Assembly (NCBI RefSeq): GCF_014467015.1
Contig: NZ_CP058559.1
Coordinates: 3,286,001 to 3,350,000, forward strand
Reading direction: 5' to 3'
DNA: 64,000 nt
Origin: Alkalicella caledoniensis
Lineage (GTDB): Bacteria; Bacillota; Proteinivoracia; Proteinivoracales; Proteinivoracaceae
The position numbers and the translations under genes are program-made. Numbering within the stretch: position 1 is the stretch's first letter; every line of letters begins with the position of its first letter. Below, in pieces: positions 11,884 to 19,840 of this stretch. A model generated the notes under the pieces. That model was not told the origin of the DNA. It made no database searches and saw only the letters and a list, made by a program, of their open reading frames with translations.

Positions 11884-12966
11884 ATGATAAATACTGCTAT
11901 TATGGAGGTAGAAGGAGTTTTAAAAGATGAAAAGGACCTACAGATTTTAACCTTAGAAGATGGAAGCCGGGCATATAACTATAAAGGCTTTACAGGAGTT
12001 ATAGGGCCGAAAGATAAGGTTGTGGTAAATACTACAGCTGTAGACTTAAAGTTAGGAACTGGTGGTTATCATTTTGTTATATCTAAAGTGTCTCCAACTA
12101 CCCTTAGAGTTTCTGAGCCGGGGCATATAATGAAACTAAGGTATACTCCCCTCCAGCTGAAGACATTTACCTTAGAAGAACAGCTAGGTGAAGAACTAGA
12201 TTATGTTAATGTTAATGGTCATATTGTAATACCCATTGAGTTACACAGTATGCTGGTGCCCATAGTTTTAGCTTTAAAAAAATTAGCACCATCTGTCACA
12301 ATAGGATATGTTATGACAGATGGTGCAGCCCTGCCTGCATTTCATAGTGAGGCTGTTAAGACATTAAAGAAACATAGCTTGATAGAGGGAACTATCACTG
12401 CAGGTCACTCCTTTGGGGGAGACTATGAAAGTGTGAACTTTATTACTGCAATTCAAGGTAGTGTAAAGCTACTAAAAAGCCAAGTAACAATTATAGGTAT
12501 GGGGCCTGGCATAGTAGGTACTGGTACGAAATACGGTTTTTCCGGAGTAGAACAGGGGTTTATAGCAGATATGGCTGCTAATTTGGGATGTAGTGTTTAT
12601 CCTGCCCTAAGAATAGGTTTTGCCGATGTTAGGGAGAGACACAAAGGTATAAGTCATCATAGTTTAACAATATTTAATGACTTGATAAGTAATAGTTTTC
12701 CTCTGGTTTTACCCCACATGGGTAGAAAGGAACTTAAATTGGTATTACATCAACTTAGGAAGCTTCGGGAAAATAAAAAACACCAGATTTACATAGCACC
12801 TGGTGTAGATATAGAGGATGAAGCTAGAAAATACAATCTGCGTCTTTCTTCCATGGGAAGGGGCCCGAAGGAGAATCCAGAATTTTTTGATTGTCTTACA
12901 GCCCTAGCAAAGTTTATTTATGAAAAGAAATTAGTTGATAGTACTGATAGCATCCTTCACAGTTAA
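11884..12966 (+). CDS. DUF3866 family protein
   Basis: This 360-residue protein has no function I can name. Its sequence pattern matches the DUF3866 family known from Firmicutes and actinobacteria: an N-terminal beta-rich part with VGTGGYHFV-like and EPGHIMKLRYTPLQ segments, then a larger domain with a conserved GMGPGIVGTGTKYGFSG block near residue 202. No signal peptide or membrane segment is evident. It follows the PepT-like gene after three bases. Its 3' end overlaps the 3' end of the oppositely oriented mciZ-like gene by 36 bases, so the two transcripts are convergent and complementary there. Confidence 0.75.
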   Translation: MINTAIMEVEGVLKDEKDLQILTLEDGSRAYNYKGFTGVIGPKDKVVVNTTAVDLKLGTGGYHFVISKVSPTTLRVSEPGHIMKLRYTPLQLKTFTLEEQLGEELDYVNVNGHIVIPIELHSMLVPIVLALKKLAPSVTIGYVMTDGAALPAFHSEAVKTLKKHSLIEGTITAGHSFGGDYESVNFITAIQGSVKLLKSQVTIIGMGPGIVGTGTKYGFSGVEQGFIADMAANLGCSVYPALRIGFADVRERHKGISHHSLTIFNDLISNSFPLVLPHMGRKELKLVLHQLRKLRENKKHQIYIAPGVDIEDEARKYNLRLSSMGRGPKENPEFFDCLTALAKFIYEKKLVDSTDSILHS

Positions 12967-13056
12967 ATGTTTTTCACCTAGCTCCTTTAGAAAACTAACT
13001 AAATCTTTGGCTTTACCTTGAAAATAAATACCTTTTTGGTTAATATGTATATACAT
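12931..13056 (-). CDS. mciZ: MciZ-like FtsZ inhibitor, 41 residues
   Basis: This is a small minus-strand gene with ATG at 13056-13054, stop at 12933-12931 and a textbook SD (AGGAGG, 7 bases before the ATG). The product reads MYIHINQKGIYFQGKAKDL then VSFLKELGEKHLTVKDAIS and two or three more residues. Aligned without gaps to B. subtilis MciZ as I recall it (40 residues), it shares K8 G9, G14 K15 A16, L23 K24 E25, G27, V33 K34 D35, I37 and S38. MciZ is made in the mother cell under sigma-E and caps FtsZ filaments to block Z-ring assembly. Neighbouring spoIIM and the EndoQ gene (yqxK in B. subtilis) support the call. It overlaps the DUF3866 gene end. The match rests on recall, so a search is needed to settle it. 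Confidence 0.8.
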   Translation of the reverse strand: MYIHINQKGIYFQGKAKDLVSFLKELGEKHLTVKDAISTIN

Positions 13057-13117
13057 ATTTAATACCTCCTGTGGAATTAGTTAATTAATATTATTCACGG
13101 GAGGTATTAAATATGCA
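13052..13117. repeat. Inverted repeat carrying mirrored translation starts
   Basis: The arms 13052-13073 and 13096-13117 are reverse complements at 20 of 22 positions. Each arm contains an SD (GGAGG), the spacer TATTAAAT and an ATG. The left arm starts the mciZ-like gene on the minus strand; the right arm starts an 11-codon ORF on the plus strand. The 22-base centre is AT-only in the middle (TTAATTAATATTATT). In RNA of either strand the arms could pair and hide the SD. Confidence 0.75.
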
Positions 13118-13148
13118 TGAAAAAATAAAAAAAGAGGTAATAATATGA
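13113..13148 (+). CDS. Possible 11-codon leader ORF before the EndoQ gene
   Basis: ATG at 13113 follows SD GGGAGG at a good distance and encodes MHEKIKKEVII before TGA at 13146-13148. The TGA overlaps the ATG of the EndoQ-like gene (ATGA), so translation of this mini-ORF would deliver ribosomes to the EndoQ start. It may have arisen simply because the SD-ATG block of mciZ was copied in inverted orientation. Whether it is translated or conserved is unknown. Confidence 0.4.
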   Translation: MHEKIKKEVII

Positions 13149-14323
13149 AAATATACAATTGTGATTTGCATATTCATGTGGGGCGCGCATTGAGTAAACC
13201 CGTGAAGGTTACAGCTTCTAGAAATCTAACCATATCAAATATTATTAAAGAATGTACTAATTTTAAGGGGATAGAGATGGCAGGTATTGTGGACTGTGCA
13301 TCGCCAGCTGTGCTTTCAGAATTAACTCTTCTTGTGTCTGAGGGCACCCTATTAGAATTGCCCCAAGCCCAAGGGGGACTAAGGTATAGGGATAGACTCA
13401 CAATAATTCTAGGTAGTGAGGTTGAAACAAGTGAAGGAGTCCATGTTGTTTGTTACTTTCCTGACCTTACAGAAATGATAGCATTTAGCGAATTTTTAGC
13501 CAAAAGGGTTACAAATTCACAATTAAGTACACAAAGGGCAAAGGTTACCTCCATTGAGCTTTTAGATTTTGTCAAAGAGCACAACGGTATTTTTATGCCA
13601 GCGCATATTTTTACACCTCACAAAAGTTACTACGGAAAAGCATTTGAAAGGCTAGAACAGTGCTTTGGCAAAAGGCTAAAGGAGGTAAAAGTGGTGGAGC
13701 TAGGTTTAAGTTCTGATAGTAAATTAGCAGATTGTATACAGGAACTCCATGGGTTTACTTTCCTTACCAATTCCGATGCCCATAGTCAAGGGAAAATAGC
13801 TAGAGAATTCAATAAGATATCCATGAAGGATAATAACTATGAAGAACTAAGGAAGGCTTTATACCGAATAGAGGGTAGACAAGTTATTGCAAACTACGGA
13901 CTAGAACCTGAACTTGGGAAGTATTACAATACCTTTTGTAGCAAATGTGACAAACTACAAGAAAATGAAATGTCAGGTAAATGTTCATATTGTGGCTCAG
14001 CTAAGATTATAAAGGGAGTATCTAATCGAATTAAAGAGATAGCAGATTTGGAAGAAGGAAAACATCCCGCCCATAGACCACAGTACCATTATCAAGTGCC
14101 ACTAGAATTCATACCTAATATTGGGAAAAAAACCCTAGAAAGGCTTCACAAAGAGTTTGGTTTTGAAGTGGATATTTTACATACAGTGGAAGAAGAAAAA
14201 CTAAAAAAATGTTTAGATTTTAATATTGTAGATACAATAATAAAAGGGAGAGAAGGTAGCTTGAAATTGAAAAGAGGAGGTGGAGGACGCTACGGAAAAA
14301 TTATTAATAATAAAACAATATAA
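13145..14323 (+). CDS. EndoQ-like PHP-domain DNA endonuclease
   Basis: This 392-residue protein resembles endonuclease Q of Thermococcales and the B. subtilis homolog YqxK. The N-terminal PHP domain starts with CDLHIHVGRA; further metal-ligand segments are GSEVETSEGVHVVCYF, PAHIFTPHKSYYGK and TNSDAHSQG. A zinc-finger-like region with CSKC and CSYC pairs lies near residues 265-283. The C-terminal part has an IPNIGKKT helix-hairpin-helix-like motif near residue 327. EndoQ nicks 5' of deaminated bases (uracil, hypoxanthine) and abasic sites, so a DNA repair role is expected. The ATG overlaps the stop of a possible 11-codon leader and has a weak SD (AAAGAGG). spoIIM follows, as in bacilli. Confidence 0.85.
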   Translation: MKIYNCDLHIHVGRALSKPVKVTASRNLTISNIIKECTNFKGIEMAGIVDCASPAVLSELTLLVSEGTLLELPQAQGGLRYRDRLTIILGSEVETSEGVHVVCYFPDLTEMIAFSEFLAKRVTNSQLSTQRAKVTSIELLDFVKEHNGIFMPAHIFTPHKSYYGKAFERLEQCFGKRLKEVKVVELGLSSDSKLADCIQELHGFTFLTNSDAHSQGKIAREFNKISMKDNNYEELRKALYRIEGRQVIANYGLEPELGKYYNTFCSKCDKLQENEMSGKCSYCGSAKIIKGVSNRIKEIADLEEGKHPAHRPQYHYQVPLEFIPNIGKKTLERLHKEFGFEVDILHTVEEEKLKKCLDFNIVDTIIKGREGSLKLKRGGGGRYGKIINNKTI

Positions 14324-14400: not shown

Positions 14401-15030
14401 TTGTCTGTAAAACATTTGCTACTACGATACCTAAAAGAAAATATGTATGTATTAATTTTTGTAAGCTTAGTACTTGTTATAGGAATCATTTTTGGTTCTG
14501 TCATGGTTAACAAACTTCCTGAGCAACACAACACACTACTTGCAGAAGAATTGAATTTCTATTTTGAAGTTTTGGATGAAACCCCATCTGTTGATCGGTT
14601 GAACATACTAAAACAATCTTTTTTCAGTAATGGACAGTTTATACTGATAGCGTGGTTGGCAGGACTAACAGTAATAGGGATACCAGTAGTAATAGTAATG
14701 CTTTTTACAAGGGGAGTAATTTTAGGTTTTACAGTAGGCTTCATATTTAACCACACATCCTTTAGGGGCCTGTTTTTTGCAATTACAGCCATAGTACCCC
14801 ACAACCTAGTCATCATACCAGCGTTTTTATTAGTATCAGTGGCAAGCATTTCATTTTCCTCTGTTATCTTTATGAAAGTTATTAAAAACAAGAGTATTAA
14901 CATAGCCCCTTATTTTGTGAACTATGGAATAATGTCTATTTTTATTCTGCTAGGTATAGGATTGGCATCAATTATTGAAGCTTACATAATTCCTGTTATT
15001 TTAAAGTGGATTGTACCATTAATGATCTAG
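14401..15030 (+). CDS. spoIIM: Stage II sporulation protein M
   Basis: This 209-residue membrane protein has at least five hydrophobic segments. SpoIIM is part of the DMP complex (SpoIID, SpoIIM, SpoIIP) that degrades septal peptidoglycan so that the mother-cell membrane can engulf the forespore. The first TM segment is near residues 16-36; later segments contain the family-typical GIIFGSVMVNKL and FTRGVILGFTVGFIF stretches. The start is TTG at 14401 behind GGGAGGGGA. The preceding EndoQ and mciZ-like genes and the xerD-dacF-spoIIA block downstream reproduce the neighbourhood in bacilli. Here, however, spoIIM is separated from xerD by a transhydrogenase operon and rubrerythrin. No convincing terminator follows; an AT-only hairpin at 15033-15099 is weak. 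Confidence 0.92.
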   Translation: MSVKHLLLRYLKENMYVLIFVSLVLVIGIIFGSVMVNKLPEQHNTLLAEELNFYFEVLDETPSVDRLNILKQSFFSNGQFILIAWLAGLTVIGIPVVIVMLFTRGVILGFTVGFIFNHTSFRGLFFAITAIVPHNLVIIPAFLLVSVASISFSSVIFMKVIKNKSINIAPYFVNYGIMSIFILLGIGLASIIEAYIIPVILKWIVPLMI

Positions 15031-16511: not shown

Positions 16512-16808
16512 ATGTCACCTTTAATATTGATATTTATTTTTTTAGTGGCTTCTTTACTCGGCTATAAGCTTATCAAAAACGTACCAAGCCTTTTGCATAC
16601 ACCCTTAATGTCTGGGATGAATGCATTAAGTGGTATTACAATCATTGGTGCATTAACTACAGTTTCTGTATTATTAAAAAACTACAACGAGTTTGTATCA
16701 ATCGTAGTAGGAGGAACTGCTGTGGTGTTAGCTATGATTAACGTCGCAGGAGGATTCGGAGTTACTAATAGAATGCTAAAGATGTTTGATAGAAGGGGGT
16801 CAAAATAA
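16512..16808 (+). CDS. pntAB: NAD(P) transhydrogenase, alpha-2 membrane subunit
   Basis: This 98-residue hydrophobic protein has three predicted transmembrane helices: near residues 3-22, 34-56 and 63-85. It corresponds to the membrane tail of the alpha subunit, which is a separate polypeptide in the three-gene transhydrogenases such as that of Rhodospirillum. It forms part of the dII proton channel with the beta subunit. SD ATGGAGGGG precedes the ATG. The stop overlaps the pntB start (TAATG), so the two membrane subunits are translationally coupled. Confidence 0.92.
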   Translation: MSPLILIFIFLVASLLGYKLIKNVPSLLHTPLMSGMNALSGITIIGALTTVSVLLKNYNEFVSIVVGGTAVVLAMINVAGGFGVTNRMLKMFDRRGSK

Positions 16809-19800
16809 TGGATGCCCTATGGTTCTATGTAATCAGTCTTGTACTATCCATAACTATTCTTTACGGCATATCCCTCATGAGTCAAGTAAAAACAGCGGTT
16901 AACGGAAATAAATTAAGTGCTATGGCTACTGCCTTGGCTGTCCTGGTTACCCTAGTGTACAATGAGATATTTTCAGAGTCATTAGCTATTATTATAATTT
17001 TAGCGTGTATGCTAATAGGAGCATTTATAGGACTTTCACTTTCAAAAAAGGTTCAGATGATACAAATGCCAGAGTTAGTTGCACTACTCAACGGAATCGG
17101 TGGTGCGGCATCTGCCTTTGTTGCTGGAGCAGCAATGTTCACAGCTGTTACCTCCTTTGAAGCTACCACAGGGGTATTAGCTCTGATTATTGGATCGTTA
17201 ACACTTACAGGAAGTATAGTGGCAGCTGGTAAACTATCTAAGAAGATAGATGGTAGGCCAGTAATATGGAACAATCATGAATTTTTGACCACAGTTCCCA
17301 TTATTCTTCTTGGGGCAATAGTTGTAGCAACTATGGTGGTGGATTTGCCAGTTACCATTATACTGCTTATTTCCATAGCTTTAAGTGGATTTTTGGGTGT
17401 AGCTTTTTCAATTAGAGTTGGCGGAGCAGATATGCCCATAACTATTTCCCTTCTAAACTCACTTAGTGGAGTAGCTGGCGCCATTGCAGGTATGGCCATA
17501 GGTAATATTCTACTGGTGGCAGTTGGTGGAATAGTAGGTTCAAGTGGCCTGTTACTGACTCAAATTATGTGTAAGTCCATGAACAGTAGTTTGCTAACTA
17601 TACTTCAGGGAAAAACAAGTGTTGCAGGCAAAAAGACAAAAGTAGAGCCTGTAGTTAAAGAAAGTGTTACTAGTGAAGTTAAACAAGTGCTGGAAGAGAA
17701 AAAAGTAAGTGCAGGAGACATACTTAAAAATGCTAAAAAGGTATTTATCGTACCAGGCTATGGTATGGCCCTAGCCCAAGCACAACATTTAGTGAAACAA
17801 TTAGCTGACACCTTAGAAAAACAAGGTACAGAAGTTAAATACGTAATCCACCCAGTTGCAGGTCGTATGCCAGGACATATGAATGTCTTGTTAGCAGAAG
17901 CGGATGTAGACTATGAACAACTTTACGAGATGGATGATGTAAATGATGAGTTCAGGGAATGTGATGCATGTGTAGTAGTAGGAGCAAATGACGTGCTAAA
18001 CCCAGCAGCAAGGGAGGCAGAAGGCACTCCAATCTACGGTATGCCCATACTAAATGTAGATAAGAGTAAACATATAATCTTCTGTAACTATGACACAAGT
18101 GCAGGTTATGCAGGGGTAGATAATCCACTATATAGCCGTGAAGAAGGAGTTAGTCTACTTTTAGGTGATGCAGCTGAAACACTGCAAAACCTTTTACATG
18201 ATGTAAAAAGTATTAAAGCAGAAGAAAAATCTAGTTCAAATGTAGAACATAGTGCAGGTGCTGTTCTAAAAGGTGCCAAAAAGGTATTTATCGTACCAGG
18301 CTATGGTATGGCCCTAGCCCAAGCACAACATTTAGTGAAACAATTAGCTGACACCTTAGAAAAACAAGGTACAGAAGTTAAATACGTAATCCACCCAGTT
18401 GCAGGTCGTATGCCAGGACATATGAATGTCTTGTTAGCAGAAGCGGATGTAGACTATGAACAACTTTACGAGATGGATGATGTAAATGATGAGTTCAGGG
18501 AATGTGATGCATGTGTAGTAGTAGGAGCAAATGACGTGCTAAACCCAGCAGCAAGGGAAGCAGAAGGCACTCCAATCTACGGTATGCCCATACTAAATGT
18601 AGATAAGAGTAAACATATAATCTTCTGTAACTATGACACAAGTGCAGGTTATGCAGGGGTAGATAATCCGCTGTATAGCCGTGAAGAAGGAGTTAGTCTA
18701 CTTTTAGGTGATGCAGCTGAAACACTGCAAAACCTTTTACATGATGTAAAAAGTATTAAAGCAGAAGAAAAATCTAGTTCAAATGTAGAACATAGTGCAG
18801 GTGCTGTTCTAAAAGGTGCCAAAAAGGTATTTATCGTACCAGGCTATGGTATGGCCCTAGCCCAAGCACAACATTTAGTGAAACAATTAGCTGACACCTT
18901 AGAAAAACAAGGTACAGAAGTTAAATACGTAATCCACCCAGTTGCAGGTCGTATGCCAGGACATATGAATGTCTTGTTAGCAGAAGCGGATGTAGACTAT
19001 GAACAACTTTACGAGATGGATGATGTAAATGACGAATTCAGTGAATGTGATGCATGTGTAGTAGTAGGAGCAAATGACGTGCTAAACCCAGCAGCAAGGG
19101 AGGCAGAAGGCACTCCAATCTACGGTATGCCCATACTAAATGTAGATAAGAGTAAACATATAATCTTCTGTAACTATGACACAAGTGCAGGTTATGCAGG
19201 GGTAGATAATCCGCTGTATAGCCGTGAAGAAGGAGTTAGTCTACTTTTAGGTGATGCAGCTGAAACACTGCAAAACCTTTTAGATGATGTAAAAAGTATT
19301 AAAGCAGAAGAAAAGCCTGAGACCAGTGTGGAAACCAGTGCTGCAAAAGTTTTAAAGGATGCTAAAAAAGTATTCATTGCGCCAGGTTATGGTATGGCCC
19401 TAGCTCAAGCACAACATTTAGTGAAGCAATTAGCTGACACCTTAGAAAAACAAGGTACAGAAGTAAAATACGTGATTCACCCAGTTGCCGGTCGTATGCC
19501 GGGACATATGAATGTCTTGTTAGCAGAAGCGGATGTAGACTATGAGCAACTTTACGAGATGGATGATGTAAACGACGAATTCAGTGAATGTGATGCATGT
19601 GTAGTAGTAGGAGCAAATGATGTGCTAAACCCGGCAGCAAGGGAGGCAGAAGGCACTCCAATCTACGGTATGCCCATACTAAATGTAGATAAGAGTAAAC
19701 ATATAATCTTCTGTAACTATGATACAAGTGCAGGTTATGCAGGAGTAGATAACCCACTTTATAGCCGTGAAGAAGGTGTTAGCCTACTTCTAGGTGATGC

Positions 19801-19840
19801 AGCTGAGACACTGCAAAAACTGTTAGATGAATTGAAGTAA
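16808..19840 (+). CDS. pntB: NAD(P) transhydrogenase beta subunit with four tandem dIII domains
   Basis: PntB normally has about 460 residues: a membrane part (dII) plus one nucleotide-binding dIII domain. This one has 1010. Residues 1 to about 265 form the usual multi-helix dII. A charged linker then leads to four successive dIII domains starting near residues 306, 487, 668 and 849. Each has the VPGYGMALAQAQ loop (APGYG in copy 4), AGRMPGHMNVLLAEA, YEMDDVNDEF, VVVGANDVLNPAA and GYAGVDNPLYSRE. Linkers of about 20 residues (KAEEKSSSNVEHSAG) separate them. In place of the Lys-Arg pair that binds the NADP 2'-phosphate in E. coli PntB, the copies read CNYDTSAGYAG. The reading frame is intact throughout, so this is expressed as one chain unless processed. 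Strong terminator after. Confidence 0.93.
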   Translation: MDALWFYVISLVLSITILYGISLMSQVKTAVNGNKLSAMATALAVLVTLVYNEIFSESLAIIIILACMLIGAFIGLSLSKKVQMIQMPELVALLNGIGGAASAFVAGAAMFTAVTSFEATTGVLALIIGSLTLTGSIVAAGKLSKKIDGRPVIWNNHEFLTTVPIILLGAIVVATMVVDLPVTIILLISIALSGFLGVAFSIRVGGADMPITISLLNSLSGVAGAIAGMAIGNILLVAVGGIVGSSGLLLTQIMCKSMNSSLLTILQGKTSVAGKKTKVEPVVKESVTSEVKQVLEEKKVSAGDILKNAKKVFIVPGYGMALAQAQHLVKQLADTLEKQGTEVKYVIHPVAGRMPGHMNVLLAEADVDYEQLYEMDDVNDEFRECDACVVVGANDVLNPAAREAEGTPIYGMPILNVDKSKHIIFCNYDTSAGYAGVDNPLYSREEGVSLLLGDAAETLQNLLHDVKSIKAEEKSSSNVEHSAGAVLKGAKKVFIVPGYGMALAQAQHLVKQLADTLEKQGTEVKYVIHPVAGRMPGHMNVLLAEADVDYEQLYEMDDVNDEFRECDACVVVGANDVLNPAAREAEGTPIYGMPILNVDKSKHIIFCNYDTSAGYAGVDNPLYSREEGVSLLLGDAAETLQNLLHDVKSIKAEEKSSSNVEHSAGAVLKGAKKVFIVPGYGMALAQAQHLVKQLADTLEKQGTEVKYVIHPVAGRMPGHMNVLLAEADVDYEQLYEMDDVNDEFSECDACVVVGANDVLNPAAREAEGTPIYGMPILNVDKSKHIIFCNYDTSAGYAGVDNPLYSREEGVSLLLGDAAETLQNLLDDVKSIKAEEKPETSVETSAAKVLKDAKKVFIAPGYGMALAQAQHLVKQLADTLEKQGTEVKYVIHPVAGRMPGHMNVLLAEADVDYEQLYEMDDVNDEFSECDACVVVGANDVLNPAAREAEGTPIYGMPILNVDKSKHIIFCNYDTSAGYAGVDNPLYSREEGVSLLLGDAAETLQKLLDELK
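17732..19837 (+). repeat. pntB: 543-bp tandem repeat, four units, coding for dIII domains
   Basis: Matching bases recur at 17751, 18294, 18837 and 19380, an exact 543-base period (181 codons). Units 1, 2 and 3 are nearly identical at DNA level, including silent positions. Unit 4 and its preceding linker differ more (silent changes, a different linker ending PETSVETSAA). Units 1 and 2 encode EFREC, units 3 and 4 EFSEC. The high silent identity indicates recent duplication or continuing gene conversion. Confidence 0.96.

Follow-up and report, generated by a model that had tools for sequence, protein, structure and literature searches.

An MciZ-type peptide gene at a conserved locus beside spoIIM in Alkalicella caledoniensis and other spore-forming Bacillota

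How spore formers outside Bacillus prevent a second division of the mother cell has been little explored. In sporulating Bacillus subtilis, the peptide MciZ serves to turn off the division protein FtsZ in the mother cell, and the locus described here raises the question of whether a small frame beside spoIIM in Alkalicella caledoniensis encodes a peptide of the same kind. The window we analyzed is a stretch of 64,000 nucleotides (contig NZ_CP058559.1, positions 3,286,001 to 3,350,000), and all coordinates below count from its first letter. The frame comprises 41 codons and a stop at 12931–13056 on the minus strand, with its ATG at 13056–13054, and the encoded peptide is MYIHINQKGIYFQGKAKDLVSFLKELGEKHLTVKDAISTIN.

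Identity of the 41-codon frame

A sequence-only reading of the window had proposed this frame as an overlooked gene matching MciZ. The frame lies exactly where it was proposed, and the Pfam MciZ model (PF13072) matches it above its curated cut-off of 22.2 bits, with 24.3 bits for the peptide and 22.7 bits in a six-frame search, so the proposed gene does have its profile match; among NCBIfam models none matches. The alignment with B. subtilis MciZ is gap-free, as had been claimed, with 16 identities (41%). The Shine-Dalgarno sequence that had been called ideal is AGGAGG at 13065–13070 (minus strand), ending 8 nt before the ATG.

Searches against the PDB lead to the same protein. With the window peptide as a single sequence, B. 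subtilis MciZ (2mrw, 4u39) ranks first, weakly (E = 0.042); with a profile of the window peptide and 18 relatives from outside the bacilli it is again first (E = 0.002), and with the full family profile, in which the B. subtilis sequence is itself included, it is the best match at E = 5e-16. An HMM built from non-bacilli only, with the window excluded, gives 53.2 bits for the window frame and 34.0 bits for B. subtilis MciZ, as compared to a maximum of 27.3 bits among 4000 shuffled peptides, although the relatives in it were originally collected by an HMM seeded with the window and B. subtilis sequences. No second frame of the window appears among the best matches of this HMM.

It is also important to consider that the frame may be spurious, open by accident on the strand opposite the 3′ terminus of a DUF3866 gene and resembling MciZ by chance. 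It is very short, it overlaps by 36 bp the convergent DUF3866 gene at 11884–12966 (plus strand; PF12982, 350.5 bits, and synteny), and a lone Pfam match 2 bits over the cut-off would be thin evidence. However, four independent lines of evidence agree, namely the profile matches, the synteny, the purifying selection and the promoters (the last given below). In gapless pairs of related copies, pN/pS is 0.13–0.42 in nine of ten, the tenth pair (L025/L041) having been put out of frame register by the gapless comparison. The frame is under purifying selection, and relatives throughout the Bacillota keep it in the same place, which answers the question of frame conservation that the proposal had left. 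With a family profile, moreover, matches at E ≤ 0.01 come from 88 of 299 Bacillota genomes, and almost every one of them occupies the same site. The pN/pS values, the synteny and the promoter evidence rule out a spurious antisense frame, to which we assign a practically negligible probability.

Distribution and gene order in the Bacillota

The family profile was built since Pfam MciZ proved too narrow for a census, matching 1 of 13 genomes of the class and 11 of 299 of the phylum. At E ≤ 1e-4 the family profile matches 74 of the 299 genomes. Among the 58 copies at this threshold with a listed DUF3866 position (the five genomes of the window's family left out), 54 lie antisense, 14–297 bp past the end of the DUF3866 Pfam domain match; genomes G001–G004, of the window's own family, have a matching small frame at the same site. 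We also ran the family HMM on every reading frame of 80 named GTDB loci, with DUF3866 as their anchor. Each of the 18 matches at E < 0.02 is antisense and placed at the DUF3866 3′ end; the next match has E = 0.35. The matched loci include those of Geosporobacter ferrireducens, G. subterraneus, Anaeromonas frigoriresistens, A. gelatinilytica, Caldanaerobacter subterraneus and Alkaliphilus transvaalensis, as well as Marinisporobacter and Syntrophomonadaceae MAGs. Weak profile matches inside long frames (UvrC GIY-YIG, ATPases) were not counted as members, given the length of the frame and its place away from the locus.

In dozens of spore-forming Bacillota families, this hidden gene is found at one and the same place on the chromosome. 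MciZ occurs outside the bacilli, and the copy in the window is not an isolated clostridial one but belongs to a Bacillota-wide family. Pfam's MciZ model misses most of this family: single clostridial members match it at E ≤ 0.01 in only 2 of 19 cases, most of them falling below threshold. Most copies have probably gone unrecognized on account of their shortness, their antisense position at a neighbor's end and their scores below the Pfam threshold. In the open-access literature we found no report of MciZ beyond Bacillus and its relatives; since the Pfam model already reaches some genomes of non-bacilli, database entries may exist.

A detectable copy is not universal among spore formers. Whole-genome searches of C. 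difficile, Romboutsia, Tissierella, Peptostreptococcus and Tepidibacter thalassicus gave nothing above chance level (E ≥ 0.04), Alkaliphilus pronyensis and Natronincola gave partial, weak profile matches, and some further lineages that sporulate, among them families of the window's class other than its own, have DUF3866 but no mciZ copy detected by the profile. The gene is therefore widespread but dispensable, or in such lineages too diverged to be seen.

The constant neighbor of mciZ across the family is DUF3866, followed by nudF, EndoQ and spoIIM. In the window, the next genes are those that had been named as its neighbors: an EndoQ (yqxK-type) gene at 13145–14323, on the plus strand and divergent from mciZ (TIGR00375, 277.9 bits, below the cut-off of 326.6), and spoIIM, for stage II sporulation protein M, at 14401–15030 on the plus strand (TIGR02831, 149.2 bits, above the cut-off of 100.2; PF01944). 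The order found in Bacilli, with DUF3866 reading toward mciZ, mciZ on the opposite strand, and nudF and then EndoQ or spoIIM reading away, is the same in non-bacilli. Given this shared locus, the gene in the window is an orthologue rather than a mere look-alike. The convergent gene of the window is DUF3866, whereas in Bacillus-type loci it is an aldo/keto reductase, which replaces DUF3866 in two Bacilli genomes (L023, L132) whose peptides are the most B. subtilis-like. At one further locus (L050, genome G029) an MciZ-like frame adjoins spoIIM and no DUF3866 was found in the genome, an arrangement that suggests linkage of mciZ to spoIIM itself.

The interval between mciZ and EndoQ has features of its own. 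An 11-codon leader frame (MHEKIKKEVII) at 13114–13149 on the plus strand has its own Shine-Dalgarno sequence and forms an ATGA overlap with the EndoQ start codon, so that translational coupling between the two is possible. A 34-nt imperfect inverted repeat (79%) at 13040–13129 spans both divergent Shine-Dalgarno regions.

The constant position of mciZ beside nudF, EndoQ and spoIIM, together with the palindrome that lies between the start sites, could be read as the mark of a peptide acting as leader or attenuator in the regulation of these divergent genes rather than of a division inhibitor acting in trans. Yet mciZ lies on the opposite strand and its transcription runs away from them, its predicted fold is confident (see below), and the gene persists where its neighbors have changed, next to spoIIM alone in L050 and next to the aldo/keto reductase in L023 and L132. 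We consider a regulatory leader very improbable.

Further along the window, in a transhydrogenase beta-subunit gene (PntB, PF02233) at 16808–19840 on the plus strand, the C-terminal nucleotide-binding domain is present four times in tandem, in units of 181 amino acids at an exact spacing of 543 bp, with 95–100% amino acid and 87–99% nucleotide identity. An ordinary PntB has one such domain; this array may be a real expansion or an assembly artefact.

Upstream signals and the link to sporulation

The sigma-E consensus consists of KMATATT and CATACAHT separated by 13–14 bp. Using a matrix derived from this textbook consensus, we scored the 130 bp upstream of 41 mciZ copies against dinucleotide shuffles. 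A sigma-E-type motif is found at p < 0.05 in 33–34 of the 41 regions, with a combined p of about 1e-30, which is an overstatement as related sequences are not independent. The contrast with the controls is still plain: the motif occurs upstream of DUF3866 in 1 of 36 cases, in mciZ coding sequence in 1 of 40, upstream of EndoQ in 0 of 12 and on the opposite strand in 5 of 40. The best example, GAATATT-13-CATACACT, is from Anaeromonas.

In the window itself, the matrix scan places a candidate −35 element, GCATATT, at 13110–13116 on the minus strand, a full match to KMATATT, at 14 bp from a weak candidate −10 element, AATAATAT, at 13088–13095 on the same strand. Their spacing and place are as in the relatives, though as a pair they score no better than shuffles (p = 0.18; p = 0.14 in 250 bp). 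A predicted sigma-E-type promoter is thus conserved in the MciZ family, with the window's own candidate being weak.

The genome of the window encodes FtsZ and, for its predicted sigma-E sporulation program, sigE (398.8 bits, cut-off 348.6), SpoIVA and SpoIIM. Across the survey, the peptide is present in 73 of 248 SpoIVA-positive genomes vs. 1 of 51 SpoIVA-negative genomes (Fisher p = 4e-6, with kinship ignored).

Predicted fold, presumed target and proposed role

An AlphaFold2 model of the window peptide, obtained from a 19-sequence alignment and no templates, has a pLDDT of 88.5, with predicted strands at residues 2–5 and 10–13 forming a hairpin and helices at 16–29 and 33–39. A Foldseek search of the PDB returned just two matches, both of them MciZ chains of the FtsZ:MciZ crystal. 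The better of these, 4u39_J, has TM scores of 0.76/0.85, an rmsd of 1.1 Å over 36 residues and a probability of 0.98; the poor E-value of 0.36 is due to the shortness of the chain. The predicted fold is that of FtsZ-bound MciZ.

The MciZ hairpin completes the C-terminal sheet of FtsZ, contacting H10 and S9 (reviews PMC4929429, PMC8456036), and an I293T change in B. subtilis FtsZ confers resistance to MciZ (PMC3618327). With interface residues taken from these sources, we compared the FtsZ of the window's genome (350 aa, L156:841–1890) to that of B. subtilis (449 bits). Ile293 and the S9 core IFGxVI are kept, while the H10 region is just 43% identical, so that binding would have to rely on co-variation. 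This combination makes binding of the window peptide to FtsZ plausible, if unproven.

The divergence of H10 also bears on whether a true MciZ homologue may have shifted its target or role outside the bacilli, toward another divisome or sporulation protein or toward fine-tuning of the vegetative Z-ring only. Identity within the family is low as well, with a column mean of 30%, and only the glycine of GK and a central leucine are near-invariant. Such a shift is nonetheless hard to reconcile with a predicted fold equal to the FtsZ-bound conformation, with the S9 edge strand and Ile293 being kept in FtsZ, and with sigma-E promoters and a sporulation linkage that are kept across the family; it seems unlikely to us, albeit the most credible of the alternatives.

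Compared to B. subtilis MciZ (PDB 2MRW, 4U39; PF13072), the window peptide thus shares a length of 40–41 amino acids, the gap-free alignment, the predicted beta-hairpin and helix, and the type of neighborhood (nudF, EndoQ, with spoIIM nearby) in a sporulating host, a trait that for the window's host is read from its genes. It differs in its weak candidate sigma-E promoter, in the diverged H10 surface of its FtsZ and in that its activity is a prediction. SulA, MinC and MipZ are FtsZ inhibitors on the C-terminal face (PMC11938149), the same surface presumed for the window MciZ, but they are unrelated to it, much larger and not sporulation-specific.

A recurrent side match of the MciZ profile is the GIY-YIG core of UvrC (IIYVGKAxxLRxRLRSYF), at N-termini in L038, L039, L043, L046, L048, L049, L149 and L150. 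In a profile–profile comparison by hhalign, the similarity (IIYVGKAxxLRxRLxxY) takes in strand 2 of MciZ as well as the helix, over 25 columns, with a probability of 65% and P = 6e-5. MciZ is a separate gene of 41 amino acids that spans just a short piece of the GIY-YIG domain, and Foldseek with the MciZ model returned no GIY-YIG structure from the PDB. MciZ may have originated from a GIY-YIG fragment, or the likeness may be convergent.

We hold with high confidence that the frame encodes an orthologous FtsZ-capping peptide under sigma-E control, in which expression, FtsZ binding and the division block are inferred. After asymmetric division, sigma-E RNA polymerase in the mother cell would transcribe mciZ. 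The beta-hairpin of the 41-residue peptide would then join the edge of the FtsZ C-terminal sheet at strand S9 and helix H10, with the MciZ helix packing against that sheet, which would cap the polymerizing face of FtsZ and shorten its filaments, and the shortened filaments would allow no second division of the mother cell.

The fact that the gene sits at the same site in dozens of families means that MciZ-type control of FtsZ is probably ancient and not a Bacillus speciality. We think it likely, with somewhat less assurance than for the window gene, that a sigma-E-driven FtsZ-capping peptide dates back to the last common ancestor of Bacilli and Clostridia-type spore formers, where it was encoded at the DUF3866–nudF–EndoQ–spoIIM locus, and that it was lost or replaced in some lineages, e.g., Clostridioides. 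In Bacillota sporulation, MciZ appears to be an old component, stable in its locus and linked to sigma-E, which annotation has mostly overlooked. For dozens of spore formers, anaerobic and thermophilic, this points to a concrete candidate gene whose place can be predicted, together with its promoter and its target, and the family supplies a diverse natural set of putative FtsZ-capping peptides, with the matching FtsZ proteins, for mapping of the interface.
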